This document shows, piece after piece, positions 2,487-23,729 of a stretch of DNA of 24,604 nt. The notes under the pieces are model-generated. The model was not told the DNA's origin. It saw only the letters and a list, made by a program, of their open reading frames with translations, and did no database searches. Both the position numbers and the translations under genes were made by a program. Numbering within the stretch: the stretch's first letter is position 1; each line of letters opens with the position of its first letter. The stretch is from a virus, in IMG/VR virus record IMGVR_UViG_3300031659_000090, positions 1 to 24,604 of that record. The stretch is one strand, 5' to 3'.

Positions 2487-5300
2487 ATGAACATACCAGA
2501 TTTTTTACGTAGCCTTCTCAGTGACTCCGGCCATTACTGCGTATTCGCGGCCAAGGATGACGTACTAATACAGAAGTTCTACGATACCCTTGAGGAAGTA
2601 GACCGCGCGACACGAAAGTTTGGCGCAGATGGCCTCAACACGTATTTTGCTTTGGGTACCTACAACGAGGTAGGCAGTCGTAAGGCTATAAACGTCCGCG
2701 AGATGAAGTCTCTATTCCTTGATTTGGATTGCGGACCACTCAAAGAGTACCCGTCACAACAAGCTGCGGTAAACGCACTGCGTGAATTCTGTAAGAAACT
2801 CGACCTACCCAGACCGTTTATGATAAACAGTGGTAATGGGGTGCACGTGTATTGGCCTCTTACCGAAGCAGTTTCGGCGGAGCGGTGGGTGGTAGAGGCC
2901 CAGCGGCTAAAGCAAGCGTGTGTTGATAATGGCCTTCGCGCTGACCCTGTAGTCACTGCAAACCTCGCGCAAATCCTCCGCGTGCCGGGTTCATACAATC
3001 AAAAACAAGACCCGCCCCTGCCCGTAGAGTTTCTTGGTTTGGAGATACCGGAGCCTGTGGTACTGGAGGATTTTACATCCAAGCTGGGTGTCCTAGCGAA
3101 GCCAGTTATCAAGATTGATCTGGGTACCGACGCGCTTTACGAAGCCTACGCCGAAAACTCTGAGAACATCTTCAAGACTATTATGAAGAAGACTGTTGAG
3201 GGTCGTGGGTGTGAGCAGTTAAAGTATATCGCGATGAACCAGTCAGAGGTTAGCGAACCTTTATGGAGGGCTGGGCTGTCGATTGCTAAGTTCTGCAGTG
3301 ATGGGGACATAGCCGCGACTAAGATATCCAACAAACACCCCGCATATAACGAAGAAGATATGCGCAAGAAGATGGGTGAGATTAAAGGTCCGTACACCTG
3401 CGCACGTTTTGACGAGTTGAACGAAGGCACGTGCCGAGACTGCCCACTGTGGGGTGAGATCAAATCCCCTATCGTACTGGGCAAACGTATTCGGCAGTCT
3501 GAGGGCGATGTGGTGGTGTCTGCACCGATCCTCAAAGGCGGTATGAAGAAGTCCGAAGATTTTGAGATACCAGAGTACCCCAAGCCATATTTTCGTGGTG
3601 CGGCTGGTGGGGTGTTCCTGCGTAGTAGCAATGCTGACGGGGACATCGACGAAGACCTGATCTACCACCACGACATCTACATTACGAGAAGACTACACGA
3701 CTTCGAACTGGGCGAGACGTTAGTGTTTCGCCTACATTTACCACAAGACGGTGTACGCCAGTTTAACGTACCCCTTACGAGTATAACTTCACGTGAGGAG
3801 TTCCGTAAGTGCATGGCGAAAGAAGGCGTAACCGCATTCGGGAAAGGAATGGATAAGTTAATGGCATATACGACAAAGTGGGTAGACGAACTGCAACGTA
3901 CCACCATTGCAGATGAAGCACACCGCCAATTCGGCTGGACCGGTGACGATATGGGGTCTTTCGTGCTGGGCGACAAGCTAGTCACGGCGGCAGACGTAGA
4001 TTTTAATCCGCCTTCGTCTACAACAGCAGGGCTGATAGATGCGTTCGAGCCGAAAGGTACGCGCGAGAAGAACCTTGATCTGCTTAATTTTTATAACAAA
4101 CCGGGGTACGAGTTGCACCAATACGTTGTCGGCGTCGGTTTTGGCTCGCCGCTGATGGCAGTCACAGGACTCAACAGTATGTCTATACACCTATATGGTG
4201 GTTCGGGTGTTGGTAAAACAACGGCACAAATGGCAGCTATTGGTATCTGGGGTAGCCCCGAGGAACTGATGAACAGCAAAGAGGATACGCACAACGCTCG
4301 TATGTTGAGGGGTGAGGTGATGCACAATATCCCGCTGGTGTCTGATGAGATGACGAACGTAAACGGCGAACAGATGTCTGACTACACCTATCAAGTATCC
4401 AGCGGGCGGCAGAAAAACCGCATGTCCGCTAATGGCAATACCGAACGCGCTCGGGGTAAGCCTTGGCAACTACTTGCTCTGAGTTCGGGTAACACGAGCG
4501 CGTGGGAAATCTTGGGTCGGTATAAGGCAACGCCGAAAGCAGAGATGCTGCGGATGTTTGAGCTAAACGTGAAGATGATGAACTTTACCAAAGGCGACAA
4601 TACTGCCACTGCCCACCTCATAGAAGACTTTAAGTCGAACTACGGGCATATCGGCATTGAGTACATCCAGTGGGTCATCAACAACAAAGACGAAGTGCGT
4701 AAGATCGTAGACTCTGTGCGTATACGCCTAGACAAGTCCGCAGGTCTTGGGCCGGAGCATCGGTTCTGGACGAACGGTAACGCCGCGATTATCGCTGGTT
4801 TGATGATCGCTAAAAAGTTGGACCTCGTAAACTACGATGTAGCCTCAGTGTATAGATGGATTGTGGGTGAGTTGATATCTCGTCGTAACTACGTCAAAGA
4901 CGCAGGGGCATCCGTCACTGAAACACTGAACAACTACTTGTCAGAAAACTACAACAACATGCTCAAGATCGAAAGCACTGAGGACTTGCGTGGTAAGAAT
5001 GACAATGGGCTAGACCAACTTGTTCCAGTCGGTGCGACTCCCCGCAATACTTTGGTTGCACGCTACGAGCCAGATACCAAGTTGTTGTTCCTGCGCCTCA
5101 AGCCATTCCGAGAGTGGTGTATTGACCAGCAAATAAACTACCAAGGCGTAGTGGATGACTTGAAAGAAAAGCTAGGAGCCAAGCGCGTTAAGAAGCGCCT
5201 GACTAAAGGCACGGACTTTAACCTTCCACCTGACTGGGTGCTAGAGATGAAGTTTACAGAGATGGAGCATGATAATGGACCAGAAGGTACTAAAGGTTGA
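2487..5300 (+). CDS. Primase-helicase fusion: AEP primase, DUF927 and P-loop ATPase
   Basis: This 937-residue protein probably synthesises primers and unwinds DNA at the phage fork. The N-terminal archaeo-eukaryotic primase part carries FLDLDCG, with acidic metal ligands D79 and D81, then NSGNGVHVYW with H120, then RVPGSYNQK, the order seen in RepB/AEP primases. A cysteine cluster (C305, C316, C319) near residues 300-320 could bind zinc. A DUF927-type region spans roughly 365-540. The C-terminal ATPase has Walker A GGSGVGKT (571-578, K577) and Walker B PLVSDE (D620, E621). GGAG at 2475-2478 lies eight bases before the ATG. The 3' end overlaps the next small gene. All catalytic motifs are intact. 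No separate replicative helicase or primase is seen, consistent with one protein doing both jobs. Confidence 0.92.
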   Translation: MNIPDFLRSLLSDSGHYCVFAAKDDVLIQKFYDTLEEVDRATRKFGADGLNTYFALGTYNEVGSRKAINVREMKSLFLDLDCGPLKEYPSQQAAVNALREFCKKLDLPRPFMINSGNGVHVYWPLTEAVSAERWVVEAQRLKQACVDNGLRADPVVTANLAQILRVPGSYNQKQDPPLPVEFLGLEIPEPVVLEDFTSKLGVLAKPVIKIDLGTDALYEAYAENSENIFKTIMKKTVEGRGCEQLKYIAMNQSEVSEPLWRAGLSIAKFCSDGDIAATKISNKHPAYNEEDMRKKMGEIKGPYTCARFDELNEGTCRDCPLWGEIKSPIVLGKRIRQSEGDVVVSAPILKGGMKKSEDFEIPEYPKPYFRGAAGGVFLRSSNADGDIDEDLIYHHDIYITRRLHDFELGETLVFRLHLPQDGVRQFNVPLTSITSREEFRKCMAKEGVTAFGKGMDKLMAYTTKWVDELQRTTIADEAHRQFGWTGDDMGSFVLGDKLVTAADVDFNPPSSTTAGLIDAFEPKGTREKNLDLLNFYNKPGYELHQYVVGVGFGSPLMAVTGLNSMSIHLYGGSGVGKTTAQMAAIGIWGSPEELMNSKEDTHNARMLRGEVMHNIPLVSDEMTNVNGEQMSDYTYQVSSGRQKNRMSANGNTERARGKPWQLLALSSGNTSAWEILGRYKATPKAEMLRMFELNVKMMNFTKGDNTATAHLIEDFKSNYGHIGIEYIQWVINNKDEVRKIVDSVRIRLDKSAGLGPEHRFWTNGNAAIIAGLMIAKKLDLVNYDVASVYRWIVGELISRRNYVKDAGASVTETLNNYLSENYNNMLKIESTEDLRGKNDNGLDQLVPVGATPRNTLVARYEPDTKLLFLRLKPFREWCIDQQINYQGVVDDLKEKLGAKRVKKRLTKGTDFNLPPDWVLEMKFTEMEHDNGPEGTKG

Positions 5301-5502: not shown

Positions 5503-5563
5503 CAGTGCAGGCACGACATTACTGCTCATAATGTTGTTCTCTGTACTTTAAAAGTACTTACTG

Positions 5564-5590
5564 GCCCCCACTTCACGTGGGGGCTTTTTT
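5564..5590 (+). terminator. Rho-independent terminator between convergent operons
   Basis: GCCCCCAC (5564-5571) and GTGGGGGC (5577-5584) form a perfect 8-bp stem with loop TTCAC, followed by six T residues (5585-5590). It ends the plus-strand operon. The minus-strand gene stops at 5592, directly abutting it. In the minus direction the stem is not followed by an immediate T run, so it looks one-directional. The 60 bases before it hold only a short palindrome-like GTACTTT/AAAGTAC pair at 5543-5557. Confidence 0.88.
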
Positions 5591-5591
5591 A

Positions 5592-8500
5592 CTATTGGTT
5601 AAACTCGTCCCGTATCTTATCCATAAAGGGCGTGTGCATTACGCCGCCCCGTGATTTGCCCGAGTTAGTAACGAAAGCCTTGTAAGAACTTTCCCGGGTT
5701 GCGTTTGTAATCCTACGGTCTTCGGCACCTTTGGGTAGACTTACGTTAAATTCGTCCATCATCGCACGTATCTTACGCATCTCTGATCTATCCCCTACCA
5801 TCTGTGCCATGTTGTGACGTTTGTTTAGCTTAGAGCGTCTTTCTTCTACAGTCTTTTTACGGCGCATAACATTCCGATTGTACTCAAGCTCACGGACATA
5901 TGCTTCTGGCGCGAACCCACTTGCCTGCATTAGGGCATTGTACAAGCTGATGTCTTCTGTGACTGGATCACCTCGACGTGTGGTTGCGCCTTCGTTGTAG
6001 AACCTAAACCCCTTGGATATGTTCCGTAAGAACGCGGGCATCACTGTTTCGCTACCGCGTCGGATGGCATCACTGTTGCTCGTTTTAAGACCATCTATAA
6101 CTTCTGCACCGCCGCGAAGGGCGTTGTTAGTCAAGCCTACCAAAGGACCACCTAGCTGTTCCACGAAGGTAAAGATAGGGCTTTGGTCTTTCTCGATAAA
6201 CGGTGGGCGATATAGCAGGCTGTTGAGTGATATACGACTAGCAACGTCGATACCAAGAACTTCATTGGCTAGACCCCCGTATATACCTTCTCCAATATAT
6301 TTGCGTAGTGCGGATTCGAAATCGTCCTCGTCGTCATCAGCGAACATGTTGTATATGGCACCCAAAGCACCCATCAGCGGCATACCACCAGCACCTGCCA
6401 TAACACCCGTGCTAATTAAGAAGTTCCGGAGTCCAAGCCGCGCTATCTTACGCTCGGCTACAATTTGTTGCGCTTGCTCTTGGGTTACACCCTGCTCCTG
6501 CATGATGGTCTGGATGTTTGTCGAGCCAATAGAGTCGATACCCAACTTATACATCATGTAGTATTTGGCGATGGCGAACCGTTTGAACAAGAAGGCTACG
6601 TTACCAATACCACTTTGTGCCCATACCGGACGCCCCGCAGCTGCAGTCGAACCAAGCGTAAACTCGGTCGTGTCAATAGCTTTCTGCGCCGCGTCTTTGT
6701 ACTGTTGGTCGGTAAGCTGTCTGCCCCCAACCTGCAGTTTTTTAACTTCTAGCATGTACGCCGCAGTTAGAGTTGTTTCTCTGTTGAAGCGTTCTGAGTG
6801 GTGAAACATAGCACTGCTCCACTTGTTAATACCCTCTAAAGGAGCATCACGACCTACTTCAAGACTTTCCTGTGTCATAGACTGGTTGGCTTGACCTTGG
6901 TCACTAGCCATATCAATCAAGATGTCAGCCCGAACCGCCTGCATTTCTGGAGGCAGTTGGTCCGGCGTATAGTTAAAAATAGCCTTACCGATTACGCCCA
7001 TTTTTACTTCTTGCTCTATAGGTACACCGTCTGGACCAGATACCATGATACCCCGTGTTTTTGGGGCGTTCGCCATTAGTTTAATAGCGGCGCGGTATGC
7101 AGCGGCGGTTTCTACTACCCCGTACTCTGCGGAAATAATCGGCATAGCACTCATAGCCACATCGAAGAACGTGATAGCCGCCGACGAAAAGTTTAAACCC
7201 ATGGTCAGGTTAAAGCCGACACCGTTAGCTACCTGCGACCAACGAGGGACGTTAGGTTTCTGAGCGAACGCTGCGATCTGGTCTAACTTCCGTGCAATTT
7301 CCGCAGTCTCAGGGTTGCTTAGGTAGCCTCCATCTTTCAACTGAATACGGAACTTCTCGATCTCCGCTGCCGATTGTATCTGCACAATCTGGCGGTTCAG
7401 GTCACGGCCCTTCCCCTTCATCATAGTTATAGCATCGAACTCGGTGTCACCTATTTTGGTAGGTGTCATGTCCCCAATATAACCGCGTACGTTTTTACGT
7501 CTGCGGAACCCCTGCATGAGCGAACGCTCGGGCATAGCATCGAGGGCTAGGTCTACAACGCCTTGGACAGCCGCCTCATACGCTTTGTTGTCTAGATTAC
7601 CGTTTTTATCCCGAAAATTATTCTTGGAAAACTCCATCTGCTTTAAGATGTCGTACACAAACGAAGAGCTAGGGACAGCGTTGAAGTTCATCGGCTGATC
7701 TGCACGAGTATACTCCGGCTGAGTCCCCGCTACACTTACGCCTTTCGCGAGTTCAAACGCTCTATTCAGCGATCTGCGGTTCTCGTAGTATTCCACTATT
7801 ACGTCAGGTTGGCCTTTTTCGTTTAAGGCTGTGTACTGCAAGCGGTGCTTACCCTTACGCATCAATGGGAAGTAAGGACGGATAATACCACTTTCCTTCA
7901 TAAGAATATCGGACAACTTCTCAAAAGCCGAGGCACGGGTAGCAGGGTCACTAATAGTAGCCTCTAAACGAGTACGTAGCGCAGGTAAAATTTCGTCATA
8001 CGTATCTTGGAAAAAGTTACGCATCTGACGGTAGAACGCCTGACCCTGCGTTCCCATGCTGACATACTGCTCGCGTAAGGCGTCATAGACTTCCAAATCC
8101 TGCGGATTAGGGTCTTTCATGTTTTTTGCCTTGGTAGTTTTAGCTGCATCTACCTTAGCGTTAAAATTTTGCACCCAAGCAGTCCGCGCCTGTTCAGTCG
8201 AAAACTCTTTTACCACAGATTTCTTGGTAACTAAGTCGTGATACGCGGTCTTGTAGGAGCTATAGAACCCGCGAAGAAGTGAGGGGTCTACTTTCAGTGC
8301 GGTAGACTTAGGGATAATATTGTTAAGTATTTTTACCGCTGCTTTGTTATCAGCCTTCCGTGCCCACGCTGCGTAATTACCAACCATGGCATCCAGTGCA
8401 TCAGTGCGTTTACGCATAGCGCCGCTCATCTTGCGGATCATAATGTTTAACTGCGGAGCAAACGGAATCTTTTTCTTCGCAACATCTGCAAGGATGCGGG

Positions 8501-11500
8501 AGTCCAGCGATCCGAGGATAATATTCTTCACACCACGTAAGGCAGGTTCGCCGCTGTTATAGACGACGTCCGCTGCCATCTCTACGTACTCGGCACGTTT
8601 ACTCGTTGGTACAGCTTCTACTGTGCTCCCGGCAATATTTAAGCTACCTTCGGAAGTTCCTGATTCTAGCAGTATGCTAGGAGCACTACGTGTAGCGGGT
8701 GACGGGGCCAGCATGCCGTTGATAATGCTATCCACTTGGTCTAACACTGACGTTTGGTTTTTTGGGCGCAGACCTATGAGCTTGCGCACAATGTTGCGCA
8801 CTGCGCTGGTAAACTTCTCCCAGCCTGACATCTTGCCGTTGTCTAACTTTAGCAAGGCTAACGCACTCTGGAACTCAGGGTTGCTGAAGGCTTCGGCCAC
8901 GAACTCATCGAGGCTACGGGTGCCGTATACGTCGCCCAGTTCCTTACGAACTGCCGTCAACAAGTTCTTCAACTGCATGGTTTCCGGTAGTAGCGGGTTT
9001 GCCAAAGACGCCGAGGTAGTAGCGTGAGTCATCTCGTGCAGAACAGTATGCACGTTCATGCCATTAGCAGCGTCGATGTAGATGGTATTCGTTTTGGGTG
9101 CGAACATACCTGCAGCTTTACGCCCCGCCAAAGGCGAGATATCGTCAACCACTTGCACCTTCGTAGTGCCAACAACTCCGGCCAACTTGGCAGCGATCTG
9201 GCGGATGCGGTCTACTTGGCTAGTCGCAGCAATAGCGTTGAGAGCGAACTGCAAGTCACCACGTTGCAGCGCGTTACGGATGCTGGGCAACAACGCTTGG
9301 TTAAGGCCATGCACAGGATCAATAAGTAAGAAGCCCAGCTCGTTCTGAGTATAGGCAAGACCATCGTAGTACTCTTGTACTTCTTCTGGTGTTAGGACTC
9401 GATTGTCATTTTCCGGGTCGAAATAATTATACTCATCTTTATTAGGAACTTTACGCTTCTTAAAGCCCATGCCGAGCATGTAAGAATCAAATGCGGTCTG
9501 GCCTTTTATGGGCTTGATCGCGCCTACTGGCCCTTCGCCGCGCATCTCTTGTCCTAGCGCAGCGGGTTCTTTAGCTTGTAGTTCCAGAGAAGCAAGTTCA
9601 CGATTCATCTGTTTTGCAAACGCCGTGTCTTCTTTCTCTTGGATACCCTTCATCGCTTTAGTAACGCCGATATAGGCATCGGATGGGCTGAACTTAGCGG
9701 TATCCTGTCTTGCTAGTGCAGCTGCATCAACGATAACAGCCATAGCTTGGGGGGACATGTTACTACGTACCCACTTCCCTGCGTTCATAGCAGACTTGTT
9801 AGTCATACCTTTATAGAACGAGAACTGTGCGGGCGTGTAATCTCTCTCTATGGACTGCGTAGGTCCGACTGCCGACACTGCGCCCATTTCGGCGAGGGCA
9901 TCTACAGGTCTACGGAACCGCTTGAAGTACAACTTAGCAGCTTTAGCTGTCACACCCAAGTCAGCGTCCTTGGTGTTGATAAGTTCTACAATACCTTCTT
10001 TGTCCACCGCAGTTGTAACCTCTGGGGTATCGCGAGGGTCGAGTTGAGAGTCGTGGTATTCACGTATTTCAGGTTGTTTGCCACGATTATTCTCGAATGT
10101 ACTGTCGAGCTGTGCTTGAGCTACGGCACTGCGCGCATCATCTACGGCTTGTAGATCAGCTTGAGGTATGGATGCACCTCGTACTTGGGCGGGGGCAACA
10201 CGAGGTGCTGGAGGTATCGCAGGGGGAATAACTTGCCCTGCAGTCTCAGTAACTTGGCCGGGAGCCGCCGCTTGCACCATTGCAGGTGTAGCTTCTGGGG
10301 TGCCTTGTGGTTGTGGAGCCACTGGCTCCTGTGTAATCGGCTCGGTGACGATTGCGTCGACTTCTTGCTCGAGGGCTTCAACCGCCCTTTTTGCGTTGGC
10401 GGCGGCTACAAGTCTTTCGGCAGTTGCTTTATTTCTGGTAGGATCGTCAACTTGTGACGCCTCTAGTGTATCTGCGCCCAGTCCAGTTGGTATTGCATCT
10501 CCGCTAACATCTCGCAGATTATCTCCCACTGGTCCCGTGACAGGTGGTGCAACGCCGGTGGTATCTCCACTTGTGCCATCTGCTGGTTCGAGTTGCTCCA
10601 AGCTCGGTCCACGACCTTGAACGCCATCTCCAAGTCCGGCATTGATATCTGTAGGTGTGATTCCCAATCCCGCATCTGCGCCTCCTAACAACGCATCTAC
10701 CTTAGCTATTGTCTTAGCGGGAGCGCCTGATGTTTTTACGTACGTATCCAACTGCTCTTTTACTTTAGGGTCAGTAATAGGCAAACCTACTATTTTCCGA
10801 GCCTTGGCTTTACGTAGAGGCGAGTTTTTACTGATACCTAAATCGGTGAGCATCTCTTCAGTGACTACTTGCTTTGCAAGGAACTTGGCTTGCGCCTGAT
10901 CGAACTTTTGTTGGGCGTTTAGCTCTACGGTAGGCTCTACGGCAGGTTCTGCTGAGTACTCAGCAACTTTAGCTTTAGCAACTTTGACGATTGCTTCAGC
11001 CTGTGGCCCCTCTTCCGCCACAACAGCTTCCTGTGCAGGGGTTAGCTCCGTTGGATCGGCGGGGGCAACTGGCTCGGCTGCGGCTACATCGTCCGCTACA
11101 AGTTCGTTAGCCTGAGCTTCTACCGCAGCTGCAGCTTCTTCCTCGGGGGTTAGTATTATTTCGGGCACGACAGGAGTTATCTCGCTGCGTTCGCCGAAGC
11201 CTGTGGCACGTACGCCGCCACCGATTAGACCACCTGCGATGGCAGCTTCGCGGTATTCGGCAATAGCTTCGTCACTATCAACTTCTAGCCCCGCTTGAGC
11301 ACGTTCCATCATTTGCTGACCGACTTCAGTCAAGCCCTCAGTAGTAGCACCACCGCCGAAACGCGCAGTTGTACGGACAAATAAAGACTTACCTATTTTA
11401 GGTAACGCACCACCCAGCAACAATTTGTCAGACACACCTTCAAGGAGTGCTTGGCCGAAAGTAGCGGTTAACGCGTCACCCACATCGACACTAAGTTTAG

Positions 11501-12101
11501 TGCCTGCAGCTACTTCGTCTTCCTGACGTTGGATGTTGTTACCGAACAAGATCGGTGCCGATACAAGGGCGGCAGCACCTGCACCGATAACAAACGGGGC
11601 AGCAACACCTGTGGCACCAGCTAAAATTGGGGCAGCTACGGCAGCACCTAGACCAAGACCTAGCTGTGTAATTTGTTCGCCAGCAATTTCACCCGCGTAC
11701 GTTAGCCCAGAACCAAAACCTTCTACGTCGGTAGACTGCATACGTTCTGGTTGTTCCAACTGCAGTTCGCCTAGCTCTTGCCTAGCACGTTCTTCTAAAC
11801 CCTGCCCATAGTTTGCAAGGAACCCAAGACCTGACTGCTCACCCGCTGTGCCGAGTGTTTCACCAAAAGCCTGCTTAACTTGCTTCTTACCACGCTCATA
11901 GCCACGACCTAATGCAGTGCCATCGTCAAACGCTTCTGGGGCTTCCCCAAAACGACTTTCGTATTCCTGAGCAATCTGCGTTCGGTCTTGCCGCAATACA
12001 CCAGCTAAAACCGCAAAGTCTTCGTCGGTTGGGGCGTCCCCAGCGTGCTCTAGTTCGTACGCTTTACCTGTCTGCGGATCAATGTATTGGTACAGGCCCA
12101 T
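5592..12101 (-). CDS. Giant polyvalent/internal virion (ejection-type) protein with zinc-metallopeptidase domain
   Basis: This 2169-residue protein is the last gene of the late operon. Residues 1-60 form a small charged domain. Residues about 147-187 are a Gly/Ala-rich hydrophobic stretch able to enter a membrane. Residues about 300-680 are Ala/Pro/Glu-rich linker. A metallopeptidase site follows: VLHEMTHA with H1022, E1023 and H1026, then DEFVAEAF with E1066 and E1070, one of which is probably the third zinc ligand. The C-terminal third contains FLFKRF (1837-1842), resembling the PLxRFG-type motif of phage polyvalent proteins, and a second hydrophobic stretch near 1892-1920. Such proteins are packaged and injected with DNA, like T7 gp16 or P22 gp16. 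The peptidase could process virion proteins or open the host envelope. Ribosome site AAAAGGGG precedes the ATG. Virion location is inferred from size, architecture and neighbours. Confidence 0.88.
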   Translation of the reverse strand: MGLYQYIDPQTGKAYELEHAGDAPTDEDFAVLAGVLRQDRTQIAQEYESRFGEAPEAFDDGTALGRGYERGKKQVKQAFGETLGTAGEQSGLGFLANYGQGLEERARQELGELQLEQPERMQSTDVEGFGSGLTYAGEIAGEQITQLGLGLGAAVAAPILAGATGVAAPFVIGAGAAALVSAPILFGNNIQRQEDEVAAGTKLSVDVGDALTATFGQALLEGVSDKLLLGGALPKIGKSLFVRTTARFGGGATTEGLTEVGQQMMERAQAGLEVDSDEAIAEYREAAIAGGLIGGGVRATGFGERSEITPVVPEIILTPEEEAAAAVEAQANELVADDVAAAEPVAPADPTELTPAQEAVVAEEGPQAEAIVKVAKAKVAEYSAEPAVEPTVELNAQQKFDQAQAKFLAKQVVTEEMLTDLGISKNSPLRKAKARKIVGLPITDPKVKEQLDTYVKTSGAPAKTIAKVDALLGGADAGLGITPTDINAGLGDGVQGRGPSLEQLEPADGTSGDTTGVAPPVTGPVGDNLRDVSGDAIPTGLGADTLEASQVDDPTRNKATAERLVAAANAKRAVEALEQEVDAIVTEPITQEPVAPQPQGTPEATPAMVQAAAPGQVTETAGQVIPPAIPPAPRVAPAQVRGASIPQADLQAVDDARSAVAQAQLDSTFENNRGKQPEIREYHDSQLDPRDTPEVTTAVDKEGIVELINTKDADLGVTAKAAKLYFKRFRRPVDALAEMGAVSAVGPTQSIERDYTPAQFSFYKGMTNKSAMNAGKWVRSNMSPQAMAVIVDAAALARQDTAKFSPSDAYIGVTKAMKGIQEKEDTAFAKQMNRELASLELQAKEPAALGQEMRGEGPVGAIKPIKGQTAFDSYMLGMGFKKRKVPNKDEYNYFDPENDNRVLTPEEVQEYYDGLAYTQNELGFLLIDPVHGLNQALLPSIRNALQRGDLQFALNAIAATSQVDRIRQIAAKLAGVVGTTKVQVVDDISPLAGRKAAGMFAPKTNTIYIDAANGMNVHTVLHEMTHATTSASLANPLLPETMQLKNLLTAVRKELGDVYGTRSLDEFVAEAFSNPEFQSALALLKLDNGKMSGWEKFTSAVRNIVRKLIGLRPKNQTSVLDQVDSIINGMLAPSPATRSAPSILLESGTSEGSLNIAGSTVEAVPTSKRAEYVEMAADVVYNSGEPALRGVKNIILGSLDSRILADVAKKKIPFAPQLNIMIRKMSGAMRKRTDALDAMVGNYAAWARKADNKAAVKILNNIIPKSTALKVDPSLLRGFYSSYKTAYHDLVTKKSVVKEFSTEQARTAWVQNFNAKVDAAKTTKAKNMKDPNPQDLEVYDALREQYVSMGTQGQAFYRQMRNFFQDTYDEILPALRTRLEATISDPATRASAFEKLSDILMKESGIIRPYFPLMRKGKHRLQYTALNEKGQPDVIVEYYENRRSLNRAFELAKGVSVAGTQPEYTRADQPMNFNAVPSSSFVYDILKQMEFSKNNFRDKNGNLDNKAYEAAVQGVVDLALDAMPERSLMQGFRRRKNVRGYIGDMTPTKIGDTEFDAITMMKGKGRDLNRQIVQIQSAAEIEKFRIQLKDGGYLSNPETAEIARKLDQIAAFAQKPNVPRWSQVANGVGFNLTMGLNFSSAAITFFDVAMSAMPIISAEYGVVETAAAYRAAIKLMANAPKTRGIMVSGPDGVPIEQEVKMGVIGKAIFNYTPDQLPPEMQAVRADILIDMASDQGQANQSMTQESLEVGRDAPLEGINKWSSAMFHHSERFNRETTLTAAYMLEVKKLQVGGRQLTDQQYKDAAQKAIDTTEFTLGSTAAAGRPVWAQSGIGNVAFLFKRFAIAKYYMMYKLGIDSIGSTNIQTIMQEQGVTQEQAQQIVAERKIARLGLRNFLISTGVMAGAGGMPLMGALGAIYNMFADDDEDDFESALRKYIGEGIYGGLANEVLGIDVASRISLNSLLYRPPFIEKDQSPIFTFVEQLGGPLVGLTNNALRGGAEVIDGLKTSNSDAIRRGSETVMPAFLRNISKGFRFYNEGATTRRGDPVTEDISLYNALMQASGFAPEAYVRELEYNRNVMRRKKTVEERRSKLNKRHNMAQMVGDRSEMRKIRAMMDEFNVSLPKGAEDRRITNATRESSYKAFVTNSGKSRGGVMHTPFMDKIRDEFNQ

Positions 12102-12120: not shown

Positions 12121-14646
12121 TTAAGTTTTTACCGAAGCACCGGTAACTCTAGACGGTCCGCCATCTCCGCCAGCTCTTGGCGTTATGCCCAGACTTGCAG
12201 CGTACCTTTGAGTAAGCTCGTTCTGGTAGTATAGCGCGTCTTCAAGAGCTTTGTCAGCTGCTAACTTGTCAGCTGGAGTTTTCGCCTCGGCGAGCGCTTC
12301 TCGCGCACTTTGAACTCTGCTATCAGCGTTATTTAACGCCGCTGCGGCTACTGTAGGGGGCTTAGTCGTACCCTTGCGGTTTGCCGCTGCCATCTGTACG
12401 TCCCTAAGCATCAGTTCAGCTTCTAGCTTACGCTCTTCGCGGTCGCCTTTTTTGGACTCTCGGAGCGAGGCTAGGCCCGCTGATCCCGCTTTGCCGAAAT
12501 CACCAGTGCTCATCAGCGTAAAGCCAGCTTGTGCCAGAGCCAACCACTTGTCTTGGTCCATCTGATTCTTCGCGGCCACAATACCGCTCTTCTTGCCGGT
12601 ACCTGTGCCACCAGTGCCAGTGTCCGGTTTTACCGCAGGGGGCATCGCAGCCGGGTCAGTAACGGTTTTTAAGGCAGCGCCGATCTTTTCCTGTTGCGCC
12701 GCAGTCTTTACGCCCTGACCCGGTATCTTATTTATCTCTTTCATGCGGGCGGCGTCATTGATAGAGGCTATGCCAGTATTGGCGGCAGTAGGTACAGTCG
12801 TTGCGCCGCCTTCTAGAAGTTTTATTCTTGCCTCGCGTTCTCTTTCTGCGGCATTGGCTTTTACCCTTTCTGCGGCTAAGGTATCAAGACTTACAGCGGC
12901 CTCTTGAGGGCTAGTAATAAACGGAGCAACACGCGTACTATATTGTTCCCGCACGAAGTTCGATATACCGGGGTTAAAAACCTCACCTACATCTTTTGCA
13001 GCTTCGCTTAAATTTTCTTGCATAAGCAACTGTTTACGGCGGGTATCTAGTGTAATAACTAAGTTGCTGTTACCCGCAGCTTCAGCCTCTGCTATTTCTA
13101 TGTTTATACGCGCAATCTCTTCTTGGTTATTAACGGATTGCGTTTCTGGATCAGGCACGCGGTACTTGTTTAAAACATCCCTAAATGTGCTGGCCTCCGC
13201 ATTTTTCAGCGTGTCGAACATGTCCATAAAGCTAGAAGTTTCTCTACCATCTTGGCTCGCTTCAGCCGCATTACGTAGCCCAGTAGCAAGACCCGCGCCG
13301 CTATCAGTAGAGAGAGCGTTACGCATCGCGGGAGTATTTAGCTCTGTGGGGCGTATGTTTGTGGGAATGTAGCCACCATCTCCACCATCTCCACCATCTC
13401 CACCACCTTGATCCTTAGCGACCTGAGCCTGCTGATAAGGTGTATCATAGGGGTTCCTAGCAACATAACCGGTTTCATCAGGTTCAGGTTGAGTGAGGAC
13501 AGGTTCCCCACCATAGATTAAATCTTCGGGCATTGCGGCCTGTGCCGCTAAACGCTCTTCGTTACGCCGCTCTTGTTCTGCTCTACGACGAGTTAACCCT
13601 GCGATGCCGTACTCTCCGCCGTCACTCTCTTGAATAAGAGGACCACTTTCTAGAACAACACCACTCCCATCACCTTGGTCTGCAGCGACTAGAGCTTGCT
13701 GCTGTGGAGTATCACCGGGATAACGAGGTTGGAACACACCCTGTAAATTGGTGGTAAACCGATCTATTTCACTAGCTAAAGGTTCTCTCACATCCATCTG
13801 TGGCGCACTAGAATAGCTCTGCGTGGCGTCGAATGCACTGCCCGGTACAAAGTCAGAAGCACCAGCACCAGCACCAGCACCAGCACCGGCACCGGCGGAT
13901 GCTATGCCTTGTGGAGAATCAAATACATTTGTGGGAGACTTAGAACCCCGAGCCTCGGCTTGAGCCGCCATTGACTGGGCTATACTATTCAGGATGCTAG
14001 ACTCTGTAACTACTGTGCCATCTCTATCAACAATGGACCGACCGTCTCCTGAAACGTAGAAAGGAAGACCCCCAACAAACGCTACAGGCTTAGGAGTTGC
14101 CGCCTGCTCTGCAGCTAAAGATTCCAAGCCAGTCATTTCTGAGTCTTTGGCAGAGGTGAGGAGGAATTCCGCAGCTAATTCAAGCATCTCAGGATCGTCT
14201 TTGTACTCTTCGTACAAGTCTGGGCGCATAACTTTTAAGTTAGCAATAGCAGATAGCGTTCCACCAGACATACTCCCGCCGGGGGCAAGACGTAAAACAC
14301 CACCGTCGGCCATCCTTTGAGGTTGGTTAGGTTGTGCAGGGAGGTTCGATGCCTGTGCGTTAGGTACACCAGTATTTTGTGTCATATCGGTCTTCGGGGC
14401 GAGAGACTGTGCAATCCCCGCAAGTCCCTTTTGAGGTACACCCGCGCCGTTAACCGCTTCTTGAGCCACCGTAGGCTGCATAAGACCCTCTTGCCGCTGC
14501 GCATCTTGGCGCATACGCTTACGGCGTTCGATCTCGCCCAAGACCATAAACTGAGGTGCAGACCCTGAAGGCATCTGCATTTCTTTTATTAACTGATCTT
14601 CTGAGAAGTTTTTCAGTTTGTCTTGGGTGTCGATCATATTAAGCAT
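12121..14646 (-). CDS. Putative virion-associated protein with low-complexity repeats
   Basis: This is an 841-residue protein, start-coupled to the upstream gene by a TAATG overlap at 14646. The N terminus is the best-ordered part: FSEDQLIKEMQMPSG and APQFMVLGEIERRKRMR (about 14-46), a pattern I associate with marine podovirus structural proteins. A short RMADGGVLRLAPGG segment (111-124) follows. The middle is low-complexity: a GAGAGAG run (251-263), an 18-residue repeat (308-325 and 397-414) and a GGDGGDGGDGG run near 415-425. Predicted helices with Glu/Ala/Arg runs occupy much of the C-terminal half. No enzymatic motif is seen. Position between the 351-residue protein and the giant ejection-type protein suggests an internal virion or tail component. 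Function is inferred from context only. Confidence 0.8.
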   Translation of the reverse strand: MLNMIDTQDKLKNFSEDQLIKEMQMPSGSAPQFMVLGEIERRKRMRQDAQRQEGLMQPTVAQEAVNGAGVPQKGLAGIAQSLAPKTDMTQNTGVPNAQASNLPAQPNQPQRMADGGVLRLAPGGSMSGGTLSAIANLKVMRPDLYEEYKDDPEMLELAAEFLLTSAKDSEMTGLESLAAEQAATPKPVAFVGGLPFYVSGDGRSIVDRDGTVVTESSILNSIAQSMAAQAEARGSKSPTNVFDSPQGIASAGAGAGAGAGAGASDFVPGSAFDATQSYSSAPQMDVREPLASEIDRFTTNLQGVFQPRYPGDTPQQQALVAADQGDGSGVVLESGPLIQESDGGEYGIAGLTRRRAEQERRNEERLAAQAAMPEDLIYGGEPVLTQPEPDETGYVARNPYDTPYQQAQVAKDQGGGDGGDGGDGGYIPTNIRPTELNTPAMRNALSTDSGAGLATGLRNAAEASQDGRETSSFMDMFDTLKNAEASTFRDVLNKYRVPDPETQSVNNQEEIARINIEIAEAEAAGNSNLVITLDTRRKQLLMQENLSEAAKDVGEVFNPGISNFVREQYSTRVAPFITSPQEAAVSLDTLAAERVKANAAEREREARIKLLEGGATTVPTAANTGIASINDAARMKEINKIPGQGVKTAAQQEKIGAALKTVTDPAAMPPAVKPDTGTGGTGTGKKSGIVAAKNQMDQDKWLALAQAGFTLMSTGDFGKAGSAGLASLRESKKGDREERKLEAELMLRDVQMAAANRKGTTKPPTVAAAALNNADSRVQSAREALAEAKTPADKLAADKALEDALYYQNELTQRYAASLGITPRAGGDGGPSRVTGASVKT
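13373..13408. repeat. Tandem 9-bp CCACCATCT repeat within coding sequence
   Basis: CCACCATCT is repeated three times and followed by a partial copy, encoding Gly-Gly-Asp units on the minus strand. It is a slippage-prone microsatellite inside a low-complexity linker of the 841-residue protein. Confidence 0.85.
13859..13898. repeat. Tandem ACCAGC hexamer repeat within coding sequence
   Basis: ACCAGC repeats, grading into ACCGGC, encode an alternating Ala-Gly run (residues about 251-263) of the 841-residue protein. This is a second slippage-prone linker in the same gene. Confidence 0.85.
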
Positions 14647-15701
14647 TATTGGAACGCCTTGTATAGAGATAGTCCAGAAAGACCCGCACCAGTTACCTGC
14701 GAAAGTGTGCTCGGGTTTTGTTGCGGGCTAGTAGTCGTACCTGAAGATGTCGTTGTGCCCGTTGCAGCAATAGGCATGCCGGAAAGGATGCCGGTCATGT
14801 TACCGATCTGCTCACGAGTGTAACCTTGCTGTTCAAGGAAGTTAGCATATTCTAAATCGAGGCCCGCTTGGCCTTCCGCTTGTATATTTTGACCAACACC
14901 TTCACGCAGCTGCTCGTTTTGGATATCTGTTTGCCGCCCGATCTCTCCCAAACGGGTAAGTTCTGAACCAAGCCCCTGCCCTGTCTTTAATGCTGCGAGA
15001 CCTGTGTTTGCCCCGAATTGACCACTTGCTTCAGTGCTAGTTTGCACGCGCGCGGCGTCCACGGCACGGCGGTTTTCGTCAGACATCGCGGCAGTTCTAT
15101 CGGCACCAAACTGCTTGGAGGCGTCTTCGTAGGCTTTCTGCTGCCCAGTGGCTTGGATACTAGCTAGTTGGCCGAGCACTTGCTCTTGTGCTAGACCTTG
15201 CTGAACGCCTTGACGTGAGCCACCGAATGCACCTGCTTGTACTGCTTTTGCGTCCCTAGAACCTTGTAGACGGTTAAAGTCTTCTATAGCAGCGTCCTTC
15301 TGTATGTTAGTTACATTCTGCATATAAGGAGACATGTACTCAGATACTGCGTCGCCGGTAAACTTACCCGGCTCTTGGAAACCATACTCCGAGAACTCAG
15401 TACCAGTGTAGTTACCCAGCTCTGTAGCGCGGTCCATACCCGTTGTGGCGTAGTTTTGTGCGGTATTAAGCCCCGCAACGCCTGTATCGGCTATACCCAG
15501 CATGTTATCGCGAGATGCAGCTACATTAGGGTCGGTACCTGCAATGCGCTCGCCTGTGTAGCCTTCGTAGGGCTTAGAGAACTCTGCCTCTGCCTTGGCG
15601 ATATTGCGCTCAAAGTAAGGTTTCGCCCACGCAGGTAAGTCTGCCTGAGCAGCACTGTTAGTCGTTGTCGTATTATACGTTGTACCACCACCGCCACACA
15701 T
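14646..15701 (-). CDS. Putative internal virion / DNA ejection protein, MCGGGG N terminus
   Basis: The 351-residue product starts at the ATG at 15701, which has AAGGAG six bases upstream and lies ten bases after the previous stop. A longer frame to 15755 would overlap the upstream gene and lacks that site. The N terminus MCGGGGTTYNTTTTN gives way to LPAWAKPYFERNIAKAEAEF. A conserved-looking core holds YMSPYMQNVTN (122-132) and GAFGGSRQGVQQGL (157-170), followed by Gln/Ala-rich helices. From memory, proteins with this GAFGGSRQ core and glutamine-rich helices occur in structural clusters of many environmental tailed phages. No catalytic motif is visible. The TAATG overlap with the next gene implies coordinated production with the 841-residue protein. 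The ejection role is an inference. Confidence 0.8.
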   Translation of the reverse strand: MCGGGGTTYNTTTTNSAAQADLPAWAKPYFERNIAKAEAEFSKPYEGYTGERIAGTDPNVAASRDNMLGIADTGVAGLNTAQNYATTGMDRATELGNYTGTEFSEYGFQEPGKFTGDAVSEYMSPYMQNVTNIQKDAAIEDFNRLQGSRDAKAVQAGAFGGSRQGVQQGLAQEQVLGQLASIQATGQQKAYEDASKQFGADRTAAMSDENRRAVDAARVQTSTEASGQFGANTGLAALKTGQGLGSELTRLGEIGRQTDIQNEQLREGVGQNIQAEGQAGLDLEYANFLEQQGYTREQIGNMTGILSGMPIAATGTTTSSGTTTSPQQNPSTLSQVTGAGLSGLSLYKAFQ

Positions 15702-15711
15702 AATTAGCTCC

Positions 15712-17277
15712 TTACGCTTTCTTCGCCATGTACTCACGCATAGTGCGTGGTGCATTAGTTTCGGCTTCGTTTACAGCATCGAGGAACCCGCCCCCATACT
15801 TCTTTTCTAGTGCATCTGCAGTCTTCTTGCGCAGTACAAACTCTCCGTCGGCAAGTAGTACGTCTTGCTGTCCTTCGAGAGATGCAGGGACTTTGTCGTC
15901 CACACCGGAACCATCGCCCGGCCCGTTAACCTCACCAGCTTCGCCGTTTGCGAAACGGTCTACTGTATCATCCAGCTCGCCAGACTGCACCTTGTCTACC
16001 AAATCTCGTAGCGCGTCTTCACCATAAGCTGCTAAAAACTGCCCTAATACAACCGCTGATTTCTCTTGAGACATCTCACCTTTTACGGCGCTCACTGCAT
16101 CAGCGATCATAGTCTTTTCGTTACCACCTGCTACTTCGCCGCCTTCAGCCATTCCGAAGGCAGGGGCTGCGAGGCTCGGACCGAACGACAACATGGACTT
16201 TTCTCCTAGCCCCGCGCGATCAGCTTCTTCCATGGAGTTGAACCCAGTAGACAGCATAGGCCCCGAGTTATATGCCAGCGGTACGTCTCCCGTAGAGTTA
16301 AACCCAAAAGCCGTATTGCCACCAGAAAAAGTTTCTTTTTCTTTTTGGTGGACTTCATTCAGGAAAGTATCTCTTTTCTGGTCAAAGGTCGGGTCGCCGT
16401 ACGTTTTCTCTATGTAGCTACGATACATCTCTAGCGGTGGAGTACTACGAGACTGTGGATTACTCATCATCATAGCCGTCATATACGCTGGCGGTAGCGA
16501 GCGACTACCTAACATGCCCCCCATAGCCATACCTGTAGCTTGACTCTGTTGATAGGCAAGCAGCTGTGCGTAGGTAGGGTTAGATATGAACTGCTGAGAC
16601 ATTGGATCATTAGGGTCGTAGTCAGGGTTAGGGACCGGTTTAAACGCCCCCTGTGCCGCAGCGCCGCTCATATCAGAGCCACCTGTCTGGCCGGGCAGTG
16701 CCACTGTAGGCGCAGTCGTCGGGGTAACGCTGGGACCATCGTTACCACTCTGCATTGACGCCATCATAGCGTCGCGCCGTTCTTTTTGTGTAGCGCGATA
16801 TGCTTCTTCCTCTGCCTTATTTTTAAAATCTGGCTCGGCTAACAAACCTTTAAAGCCGCTAACTGCATCACCAGCCGTTTCCCCAATCCCCAAAATACCC
16901 GCACCGGTTTTACCCTTGGTAAGCTCGTTAGTAGCAATACTGCTTAGTAGACCCGGAAGACCACCAGTCGCGGCACCGAAAAGGGCGGACGCATACCGTT
17001 GTTTGTATTTGTCGTTAGCATCCCTACGGATTTTCTTCTGTTTGCCATTCACCATGATATTTGCATATCCGGGGCCGTCGTCGTTTTTATTGTTGGGGCT
17101 ATAGTCGTAAAACTGCGAATCACGGCTACTGTTGTCTTCCGTCAGAACACCATCATTATAAGACATGCCGTCACCCGGCGTGAAGAAGTTCGCTAAAGTC
17201 TCTTTAAGGCTATTACCAGAGTCTTTTTTGTCATCGTTGCTGCTATCGTTAGCTGAACCTACACCGTCACCACACAT
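15712..17277 (-). CDS. Putative virion protein with GPGDG / LADGEF C-terminal domain
   Basis: This is a 521-residue protein with AAGAGG eight bases before the ATG. The N terminus (MCGDGVGSANDSSNDDKKDS) is acidic and disordered. A Gly/Ala-rich segment lies at about 98-135. A proline-rich, Met-rich middle follows. The C-terminal part contains GMAEGGEVAGG (375-385), then GPGDGSGVDDKVPASLEGQQ (452-471), then LLADGEFVLRKKTADALEKK (474-493). The GPGDG...LxDGEFV arrangement recurs, as I recall, in structural proteins of marine phages, often annotated hypothetical. The Met-Cys-Gly start is shared with the next gene. Function is unknown; placement before the two putative ejection-type genes makes a virion component most likely. 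There is no signal peptide or clear transmembrane helix. Confidence 0.8.
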   Translation of the reverse strand: MCGDGVGSANDSSNDDKKDSGNSLKETLANFFTPGDGMSYNDGVLTEDNSSRDSQFYDYSPNNKNDDGPGYANIMVNGKQKKIRRDANDKYKQRYASALFGAATGGLPGLLSSIATNELTKGKTGAGILGIGETAGDAVSGFKGLLAEPDFKNKAEEEAYRATQKERRDAMMASMQSGNDGPSVTPTTAPTVALPGQTGGSDMSGAAAQGAFKPVPNPDYDPNDPMSQQFISNPTYAQLLAYQQSQATGMAMGGMLGSRSLPPAYMTAMMMSNPQSRSTPPLEMYRSYIEKTYGDPTFDQKRDTFLNEVHQKEKETFSGGNTAFGFNSTGDVPLAYNSGPMLSTGFNSMEEADRAGLGEKSMLSFGPSLAAPAFGMAEGGEVAGGNEKTMIADAVSAVKGEMSQEKSAVVLGQFLAAYGEDALRDLVDKVQSGELDDTVDRFANGEAGEVNGPGDGSGVDDKVPASLEGQQDVLLADGEFVLRKKTADALEKKYGGGFLDAVNEAETNAPRTMREYMAKKA

Positions 17278-19867: not shown

Positions 19868-20118
19868 ACCACTATCCTCAGTTCACCTGTTGAAGTTTTA
19901 TACACATCATTTACGGCAAGTCCGCCAGTAAGAGCCGCAGCGTTGTTCGCAAATACAGAAAGACCCGTCAAGTTAAGTGTGTACGCTCTGATAGGCCCGG
20001 GGTTTGCTAGTTGCTGAGCGTACACAGAAAAAGACCGCGTAATCTGTGACGTATAGGTTTGGCTATACTCAGCTGGGGCTTGGGCAAAGAATGGTACAAC
20101 AGCGTTACTTACCGACAT
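19864..20118 (-). CDS. Small structural-type protein following the tail nozzle gene
   Basis: The 84-residue product is coupled to the preceding tail gene by a TAATG overlap at 20118 and to the next mini-gene by ATGA. It is rich in Ala, Thr, Ser and Asn with short beta-prone segments: YSQTYTSQITRSFSVYAQQL, then YTLNLTGLSVFANNAAALTG, ending in VYKTSTGELRIVV. There is no charge-rich or membrane segment. Composition and location suggest a tail or virion accessory protein made together with the nozzle protein. No family is recognised. Confidence 0.78.
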   Translation of the reverse strand: MSVSNAVVPFFAQAPAEYSQTYTSQITRSFSVYAQQLANPGPIRAYTLNLTGLSVFANNAAALTGGLAVNDVYKTSTGELRIVV

Positions 20119-21983
20119 TACCTTCTCCCGTCGGGTCTTAGGTCAATACGTGTCGTCCCAAGTCTCCACTGAGTGTTTACTTGGTTGGACTCCACTTTTA
20201 TAGAAACCGCGCGTCCTCGTACCCGAACGTCAAGTTGCTCAGTATATTGCTCTACCGGACTAGCTACAGTGCGAACGGTGTTTCCGCTCTGGGTCTGTGT
20301 GGTGCCGCTACCGGGATAAGTCCGTGCATTTAGCGTGAACGTAGCCAGCGGATCGCCCGTAGAGTTTCTAAAGCCTATGTCGGGCATGATTCGTTTAACG
20401 GACATAAATTGCTGCCCATCCCCGATATCAACGCCGCTTGACTCGATGTAACTGTTGATTGGGCTTGGGGGGTTCGTACTTCCATCGGAAAAACCGTTTT
20501 CTTGGAAGTAGATGTTGCCGTCAGGGGATGCAGCGATAGGGAAACCAGAAACGCCGCTCTGATCCCAAGCGGTACGATCAATAGTACCGTAAAACCATAG
20601 GTTATCGGCGTAGTTATACACAACGTAGCGGTCGTTATTTTCGCTAGATGCAGATGGGTAAAACCACCAAACCTCGTTAAATTCGGTGTTGCTGCCCGCC
20701 GTGACCTTACTAAGCTGGGAAGTGTTTACATTATCAAATACGTATTCTTCCACAGGGCACGGTATAAGGCTTACGTTACCATCGTAACGGTAAAACACAT
20801 CGTTACCCATCCAGTAAACAGCGTCTCCAATGGCTACAGCAGCGTTCTGGCCCAATATAGAAGTGTTAGTCGATACCTCGCTTAGACCAAAGGTAAACGG
20901 ATCACCGATATACTGCAGGGCGCTAACTGATCTATCAGTAAATACGACAACCTGCTGTTTTGTCTGCACGGCTGCTACGATTTTGGAACCCGTACCAATA
21001 CGCAATTCACCAGCAGTGGTGGTAGGCGATGCGTTCCAAACAGTAAAGCTCTCCTGAGTAGAGAACCGTATGGTTAAAGGGTCTAGAACACCGGGGTCGT
21101 CTTCTGGGTCGCAGCCAAACGCCATAACGTGACGATCTCGTTCGGAAACCAGCACAATATTAGCTACTTGAGGTTGAGCACTACCACTTACACTGGTAAT
21201 GTTTACAGCACGGGAAGATGTCCCTGCAGAGGTGTCCCAGTAGTAAATGCCCCCACCACGGGGGTTTGCCAAAAGGTCTTCACCAAAATTATCCATAGAC
21301 CAAAGTCGGAGACTAGCCCCCGGGATAGTGACGGAAGCCGCAGAGTTCCAAGCCCCACGCCCCCAAACACCCGCGCCCCAACCGCTACCCGAAGCTGCCG
21401 AGTCCAGACCAACGTTGATCTGGTACGCTGCAACCACAGAAGACCCGCCGCCCGTTGCAACGGACGTGGCGGTCCCACCAGTATCTACAATATAGGTATT
21501 AGCGTTTACGACCTCAATAACTTGTTGTTCTTGGTTTATTTGAGCCGCCGTTATACCGCCTACGGTGGTAGCTCCAGAGAACGTCACATAGTCCCCAAGA
21601 AAAACTCCGTTGTTTGAGTCGGTAATTCTTATATACCCATTGCCGGAGGGATTCCCCGAATTGATCGTTTGGATGGGGTTTGCTCCGAGAGTGACGGTGC
21701 GGCGAATGGGCGTAATGTCTACAGGTTGAGCACCATCTAAGACGTAGAGCTTTATATTAGTCCCCGCACCGACAAGTCTAGTTCCTATTAAATTTGTCCA
21801 AGGGTGAAGATCACGGCACGTCCCAAGCATCGTAGAACTCGTCAGCTTAGTCCACCCGCCGATTGTCTCAGGCATGCCCAAACGAAATCTTATCTTGTCG
21901 CCGTCACGCCACCCACCTTCGTTGGTGTAGTCCGTAGCATCTTGCACGATACCCGGGCGGAACTGGAGCTTTTGTAGTGGCAT
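20118..21983 (-). CDS. Tail nozzle / packaged-DNA stabilisation protein, P22 gp10-like
   Basis: The 621-residue protein has GGAGG before its ATG. The N terminus MPLQKLQFRPGIVQDATDYT, then NEGGWRDGDKIRFRLGMPET (21-40) and IGGWTKL, is, as I recall, a recurrent signature of a podovirus tail protein annotated as structural or gp10-like. The body is all-beta-like, with repeated segments such as GDYVTFSGATTVGGITAAQI, GDAVYWMGNDVFYRYDG and VVYNYADNLWFYGTIDRTAW that resemble propeller blades. In P22, gp10 forms the tail hub between portal adaptor and needle; in T7 the counterpart nozzle is gp12. It supports short-tailed (podovirus) morphology. The match to P22 gp10 is inferred from architecture and was not searched. 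Confidence 0.82.
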   Translation of the reverse strand: MPLQKLQFRPGIVQDATDYTNEGGWRDGDKIRFRLGMPETIGGWTKLTSSTMLGTCRDLHPWTNLIGTRLVGAGTNIKLYVLDGAQPVDITPIRRTVTLGANPIQTINSGNPSGNGYIRITDSNNGVFLGDYVTFSGATTVGGITAAQINQEQQVIEVVNANTYIVDTGGTATSVATGGGSSVVAAYQINVGLDSAASGSGWGAGVWGRGAWNSAASVTIPGASLRLWSMDNFGEDLLANPRGGGIYYWDTSAGTSSRAVNITSVSGSAQPQVANIVLVSERDRHVMAFGCDPEDDPGVLDPLTIRFSTQESFTVWNASPTTTAGELRIGTGSKIVAAVQTKQQVVVFTDRSVSALQYIGDPFTFGLSEVSTNTSILGQNAAVAIGDAVYWMGNDVFYRYDGNVSLIPCPVEEYVFDNVNTSQLSKVTAGSNTEFNEVWWFYPSASSENNDRYVVYNYADNLWFYGTIDRTAWDQSGVSGFPIAASPDGNIYFQENGFSDGSTNPPSPINSYIESSGVDIGDGQQFMSVKRIMPDIGFRNSTGDPLATFTLNARTYPGSGTTQTQSGNTVRTVASPVEQYTEQLDVRVRGRAVSIKVESNQVNTQWRLGTTRIDLRPDGRR

Positions 21984-22847: not shown

Positions 22848-23729
22848 TCATGCTGCTATCCCCGTCCAAACCGTACTCGGAGTAGGGTTTACACCCGTCC
22901 AAGTGTTCCCGGGATTTGGTATAATTGGCCCCCAAACAACGGCAACCCCTATCTCGCCTTGAGCTACCACTCCGAAAGGTATTACTACCGCTGTCCCTGT
23001 TGTTACTACCGATCCTACACTACCTGTAGCAGAAACTCCAGTTACATCTACGTCAGCGCCCGCGTCTACCACAACGAAGTCGGCGTTTACTACCGCCGTG
23101 CCAGATACACCTGCTACACTGAACGCGGCGGTCCCTGTAATCGTCGGACTTCCGACTTCGCCTGTACTCTGGACTCCGTCAGGGAAGACGTTAGCCGTGC
23201 CCACAAGAATAACCGTGCCTATCGCGCCTGTAGCCGCAACATTAGTTACTGGCACAACGATATTTTCCGTTGCGAATATTGTGACCTCGTCCACAGCGCC
23301 TGCAGCTGCAACGCCAGTAATAGCAAAAACAGCGTTGCCTTTTACTGTTGGAGAACCAAGAACACCAGATAGTTGTGGTGAGGTTACTGCTATATTGGCA
23401 GTGCCCACTGCCGTAGTTGATCCAACCGCAGACGTAGCGGAAACACCCGTAACTGCGACCCCCGCGCTCGCAGCGGCGGTTATTGAGCCAACAAGCCCGT
23501 TCAACTGATCTATAGCAAACGTGCCTGTCGCACCCGCGTCTACCACTACGGTATCGGGATTAACTAGAGCGGTCCCCTCTACGGACCCAAGCGTTAGACC
23601 GATCTGATCCCCAGTAACTGTAACAGAACCAACGGCGGTTGTCCCCACAACACCTGTAGGGATAAACAGAAGCTCGCCGCTGCCCGCATCGGCAAGGGCT
23701 GCACCAGAAAAGGGGGCAAAACCTAGCAT
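22848..23729 (-). CDS. Repetitive fibre/appendage-like protein with about 22-residue beta repeats
   Basis: The 293-residue protein has TAAGGA upstream of the ATG. After the short N terminus MLGFAPFSGAALADAGSGEL it is almost entirely repeats of about 22-24 residues built on VTGVSATGxVGSVxxxGTAxV. There are at least seven copies, some with an inserted VVVDAGA motif. The C terminus changes to NPGNTWTGVNPTPSTVWTGI. The composition is Val/Gly/Thr/Ala with almost no Lys or Arg, as in extended beta-helical or beta-solenoid appendages. I recall similar repeats in tail fibre or decorating proteins of marine phages. It probably forms a rod-like virion appendage; adhesion to the host surface is inference. 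Confidence 0.8.
   Translation of the reverse strand: MLGFAPFSGAALADAGSGELLFIPTGVVGTTAVGSVTVTGDQIGLTLGSVEGTALVNPDTVVVDAGATGTFAIDQLNGLVGSITAAASAGVAVTGVSATSAVGSTTAVGTANIAVTSPQLSGVLGSPTVKGNAVFAITGVAAAGAVDEVTIFATENIVVPVTNVAATGAIGTVILVGTANVFPDGVQSTGEVGSPTITGTAAFSVAGVSGTAVVNADFVVVDAGADVDVTGVSATGSVGSVVTTGTAVVIPFGVVAQGEIGVAVVWGPIIPNPGNTWTGVNPTPSTVWTGIAA

Follow-up and report, generated by a model that had tools for sequence, protein, structure and literature searches.

A zincin metallopeptidase domain predicted in a giant, probable ejection protein of a marine phage

Zincins in injected phage proteins have already been predicted (Iyer et al. 2017, PMC5512222), and the published proposals for such domains are self-processing, release of domains after injection, or action as effectors (PMC5512222). 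In phage N4, a structure preprint places an HExxH domain, C1, at residues 2124-2375 of the vRNAP, followed by a large helical domain, C2 (PMC12633501). For the phiKMV-like phages, a limited literature search did not find a zincin domain named in phiKMV gp37. Many records of gp37 and of its Klebsiella phage F19 counterpart gp44 annotate a lysozyme or endolysin region instead, which was not detected in the Pfam scan used here.

The window analysed here is the whole of a 24.6 kb stretch from a virus record, and the phage is described as marine. Its largest feature is an ORF of 2169 residues at 5592-12101, with the coordinates and length given in an earlier, sequence-only reading; the strand is minus, with the ATG at 12101 and the stop at 5592, and the start is kept in relatives. 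One viral record is near-identical (98-100 % in the shared proteins), and about 40 more relatives were found among viral contigs. Comparison of the relatives divides the protein into a conserved N-terminal module (residues 1-300; 11202-12101), a variable, low-complexity Pro/Ala/Glu linker (residues 301-690; 10032-11201; dN/dS 0.58) in which no DNA repeats were found, a small conserved module (residues 690-800; 9702-10034), a highly conserved domain (residues 926-1140; 8682-9326) predicted to be a zincin, LPD39 (PF18858; residues 1187-1395; 7917-8543) and a PLxRFG/tail-700 domain (NF032893; residues 1409-2157; 5631-7877), all on the minus strand. Hydrophobic, Gly/Ala-rich stretches had been proposed, and the one at residues 143-190 (11532-11675) is clear, with Kyte-Doolittle values up to 1.93, while those at 1632-1665 (1.52) and 1894-1917 (1.37) are weaker.

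The divergence of the giant gene from three related loci (L034, L074 and L115) is uneven, suggesting exchange of modules by recombination. The C-terminal part is 90 % identical to that of L034, with residues 690-800 very different, and in L115 the neighbouring proteins are 65-78 % identical and the giant protein 38 %.

The protein contains both HEMTH (residues 1022-1026; 9024-9038), predicted to supply two zinc-binding His and the catalytic Glu, and DEFVAEAF (residues 1065-1072; 8886-8909). There are only 12 His among the 2169 residues, and about 0.005 HExxH motifs would be expected by chance in a protein of this composition. H1022, E1023, H1026 and E1066 are invariant in all 58 distinct relatives, a count that is inflated by kinship among them. 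These relatives were fetched using six seeds, none of which covers the zinc-site motifs, though one, KMSGWEKF, lies about 20 residues beyond DEFVAEAF. In a second viral scan DEFVAEA was itself a search seed, and its conservation there was left uncounted. Given both the expected number and the invariance, the HEMTH site, as a sequence-predicted zinc site, is no chance occurrence, and the earlier claim of an intact metallopeptidase site stands. One further metagenome relative (L174) has a frame break within the zincin, at 4500-4950, perhaps an assembly error, and was excluded from the 58.

Either E1066 or E1070 had been suggested as the third zinc ligand. E1070 is present in 57 of the 58 relatives. 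However, N4, CB1, Littlefix, LUZ19, F19 and Parlo have W, Y or L at that position and yet retain a Glu corresponding to E1066, which makes E1066 the likely third ligand.

A structure prediction, which the sequence-only reading had proposed as a check, gave a zincin order of elements. In the AlphaFold model the core has a pLDDT of about 90 and runs helix, three strands, HExxH helix and second Glu helix; E1066 lies in model helix 165-174. The features of zincin-like metallopeptidases (MPTases) found here are an invariant HExxH, a Glu on a later helix, and a core of one helix, three strands and two helices. The domain also has the lowest amino acid divergence in the protein (median pN 0.154; dN/dS about 0.12). 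It is predicted to fold as a zincin, and zinc binding and peptidase activity are predicted with it. A Foldseek search against viral models gave 22 matches below 1e-3, including LPD/ART-PolyVal proteins, a phiKMV-like internal core protein, internal protein D of Bordetella phage BB8 and a structural protein of a Cellulophaga phage; a vRNAP fell narrowly outside, at 1.5e-3. Against the PDB, the sole fold match was weak, to a distant M34-type zincin (E 0.026), and a remote M34-type link for such polyvalent MPTase domains has also been noted by Iyer et al. 2017 (PMC5512222). No Pfam peptidase model reached its cut-off on this zincin. Members of the family scored weakly, below the curated cut-offs, against DUF6782 and Tox-MPTase4.

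Searched alone against PDB sequences, the protein gave no match. The profile search of the zincin region, also proposed earlier as a check, joins it, together with the fold search, to the HExxH domains of N4-type vRNAPs, phiKMV-like gp37 and DarB/PLxRFG polyvalent proteins. The PDB chain 9sfn_G, an 'internal virion protein', was matched with an E-value of 1.2e-5. Over the 152 aa matched it is identical to LUZ19 gp37, and likewise to gp37 of other phiKMV-like phages; 9sfn_G and LUZ19 gp37 are also equally long, at 1337 aa. The motif in 9sfn_G is H423-E-A-V-H427. Among PHROGs, 24 of 32 members match N4-type vRNAP (phrog_2206), at 2070-2249; the predicted catalytic Glu of N4 gp50 is E2229. The zincin profile also matches the giant protein of Serratia phage Parlo and those of two contigs from bacterial MAGs, the E-values of the Parlo comparison referring to a very small database. 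The related HExxH domain is intact in phiKMV-like gp37 (L125, 3259-7272) and in F19 gp44 (L126, 3376-7095). The Parlo giant protein (L127, 6431-17725) has two HExxH sites, at 1195 and 2557. The two MAG contigs (L052 and L053; Verrucomicrobiales and Betaproteobacteria) encode the same zincin, which in L053 is combined with LPD1, ART-PolyVal and LPD38.

A polyvalent C-terminal region carrying FLFKRF had been recognized earlier, and it was recovered here as LPD39 (31.6 bits against a cut-off of 27 in the Pfam scan) and PLxRFG/tail-700 (245.8 bits against a curated cut-off of 100), with FLFKRF invariant at 1837-1842. Some of the C-modules matched phrog_12003, 'internal virion protein'. A predicted structure for the last 770 residues (mean pLDDT 54.9, pTM 0.36) was too poor for a fold search. 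At the other end, the N-modules of all 21 members compared matched phrog_6958, a family of virion structural proteins, and there was a weak match to phrog_2206, N4-type vRNAP; a tblastn search with this module against phages gave no match. Two proteins without HExxH, each about 2100 aa long (L192 and L197), contain relatives of the N-module, and the C-terminus of L192 is LPD38. This N-module goes with other C-termini as well.

The giant gene lies at the end of a P22-like tail/ejection operon, and an early operon converges on it, with a terminator-like hairpin between the convergent genes at 5563-5585 (plus strand). Directly upstream is a gene for an 841 aa protein (12121-14646), possibly a second ejection protein, followed by genes for a 369 aa protein matching phrog_4287, 'DNA ejection protein' (14646-15755), a 521 aa protein of the same operon (15712-17277) and a tail hub of gp10/stabilization type (phrog_3287; 20118-21983), all on the minus strand. 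Relatives keep the order of gp10-type hub, small genes, M15 endolysin, GNAT, 521 aa protein, 369 aa protein, 841 aa protein and giant gene. Because of this synteny and of the homology to internal virion proteins, the earlier proposal that the giant product is an ejection or internal virion protein is supported; packaging and ejection are what we infer from them. The 369 aa ORF probably starts at an internal ATG at 15701 (MCGGGG...), which would end its overlap with the 521 aa gene. Elsewhere in the window, 22848-23729 encodes a 293 aa protein of imperfect short repeats of GTA/ITGVSA type, probably a tail or appendage protein.

The explanation that we favour, with some confidence, is a virion-packaged, polyvalent-type ejection protein whose zincin is a working protease acting at delivery. 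The chain would run from a hydrophobic N-terminal virion module through a flexible linker to the zincin, LPD39 and the PLxRFG C-terminal module, and would be ejected along with the genome via the short tail. Zinc would be held by H1022, H1026 and E1066, with E1023 as the general base, and at delivery the zincin would cleave a protein of the host, one ejected along with it, or else its own chain, freeing the C-terminal half from a membrane-anchored N-terminus. The two readings weighed next are branches of this explanation and overlap with it.

Action on another protein is placed slightly ahead of self-processing because the zincin is the only enzyme recognized in the chain. In its strict form, with the protease injected to cleave an envelope, defence or metabolic protein of the host early in infection, this is a serious possibility, falling somewhat short of an even chance. 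The active site is invariant, and the same class of domain supplies effectors in conflict systems (PMC5512222). However, phages whose hosts differ widely all keep the domain, and it is also present in proteins with other jobs, such as vRNAP, which a general role in delivery fits better.

Self-processing, as proposed by Iyer et al. for polyvalent MPTases (PMC5512222), is a tentative second. The zincin would cleave its own chain, either inside the head or once ejected, parting the membrane-anchored N-terminal part from LPD39/PLxRFG. Its place, with the flexible linker on one side and the C-terminal modules on the other, suits this, as does the precedent inferred for P1 DdrB (PMC5512222). However, full-length N4 vRNAP, with its HExxH domain, gave no evidence of degradation (PMC12633501), so self-cleavage does not follow automatically from such a domain. 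The linker is a mosaic with no conserved cleavage site, and the chain holds no second recognized enzyme to release. Cleavage of the linker in the manner of a Pro-Pro endopeptidase was rejected, as Pro-Pro pairs are not enriched (70 observed, 92 in shuffled sequence).

A structural or metal-stabilized module, conserved but without catalysis, is a rather unlikely reading of the fold. The N4 C1 domain, which has no reported activity (PMC12633501), would be a parallel, but the general-base Glu is invariant alongside the metal ligands, and this argues for catalysis.

The sequence-only reading had placed a peptidase in the gene analogous to that of T7 gp16, and this was not borne out: PDB sequence searches found no homology to gp16, the neighbouring tail hub is of P22 gp10/stabilization type rather than T7 type, and a single Parlo protein carries both SLT and zincin, so the two are not alternatives. 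A wall-opening role in genome entry, in which the peptidase would substitute for the gp16 transglycosylase, is accordingly very improbable, even with the gene in an ejection operon and no SLT transglycosylase domain matched by Pfam in its product, since the fold is also closest to protein-cutting zincins.

A bolder extension, doubtful in our view, is that the zincin is itself the injected weapon. An abundant lineage of marine phages would then have a minimal, 'protease-only' ejection protein, and its homologues in the model phages N4 and phiKMV-like phages would be an overlooked class of proteases, injected to cleave one shared host target while the genome enters.

This locus is a well-supported new example of the protease-bearing injected phage proteins predicted in 2017, not a new kind of system. 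It connects that predicted domain with LUZ19 gp37 and N4 gp50, internal virion proteins of phages grown in the laboratory, and it shows the zincin persisting in a lineage where the same protein has no other recognized enzyme.

Among known systems, T7 gp16 is likewise the third and largest protein of its ejection operon, but has an N-terminal lytic transglycosylase that the giant protein lacks. N4 gp50 and other Schitoviridae vRNAPs share with it a hydrophobic N-terminal part, a low-complexity linker, the HExxH C1 domain and a large helical C-terminus, and are the last and largest ejection proteins. However, the giant protein has no RNA polymerase domain (no polymerase family in the Pfam scan), and profile comparison of its N- and C-modules with N4 gp50 gave no significant match. 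LUZ19 gp37 and F19 gp44 carry the related HExxH in the third, largest protein of the internal-virion operon, but are shorter (1239-1337 aa), and LPD39/PLxRFG was not found in them. The DarB-like PLxRFG protein of Parlo (YP_009845088) shares the homologous zincin, LPD39 and the PLxRFG C-terminus, but has 3764 aa, with an additional SLT transglycosylase, helicase, methyltransferase and second HExxH. The protein studied here resembles the polyvalent MPTase proteins (PMC5512222) in its giant size, its late operon, its LPD39 and PLxRFG modules and a zincin that combines HExxH with a Glu on a later helix. Those proteins combine several different enzymatic domains per chain, whereas here the Pfam and NF032893 scans recognized the zincin alone, itself without a Pfam peptidase match at cut-off, and the predicted product is of polyvalent type rather than a full polyvalent toolkit.
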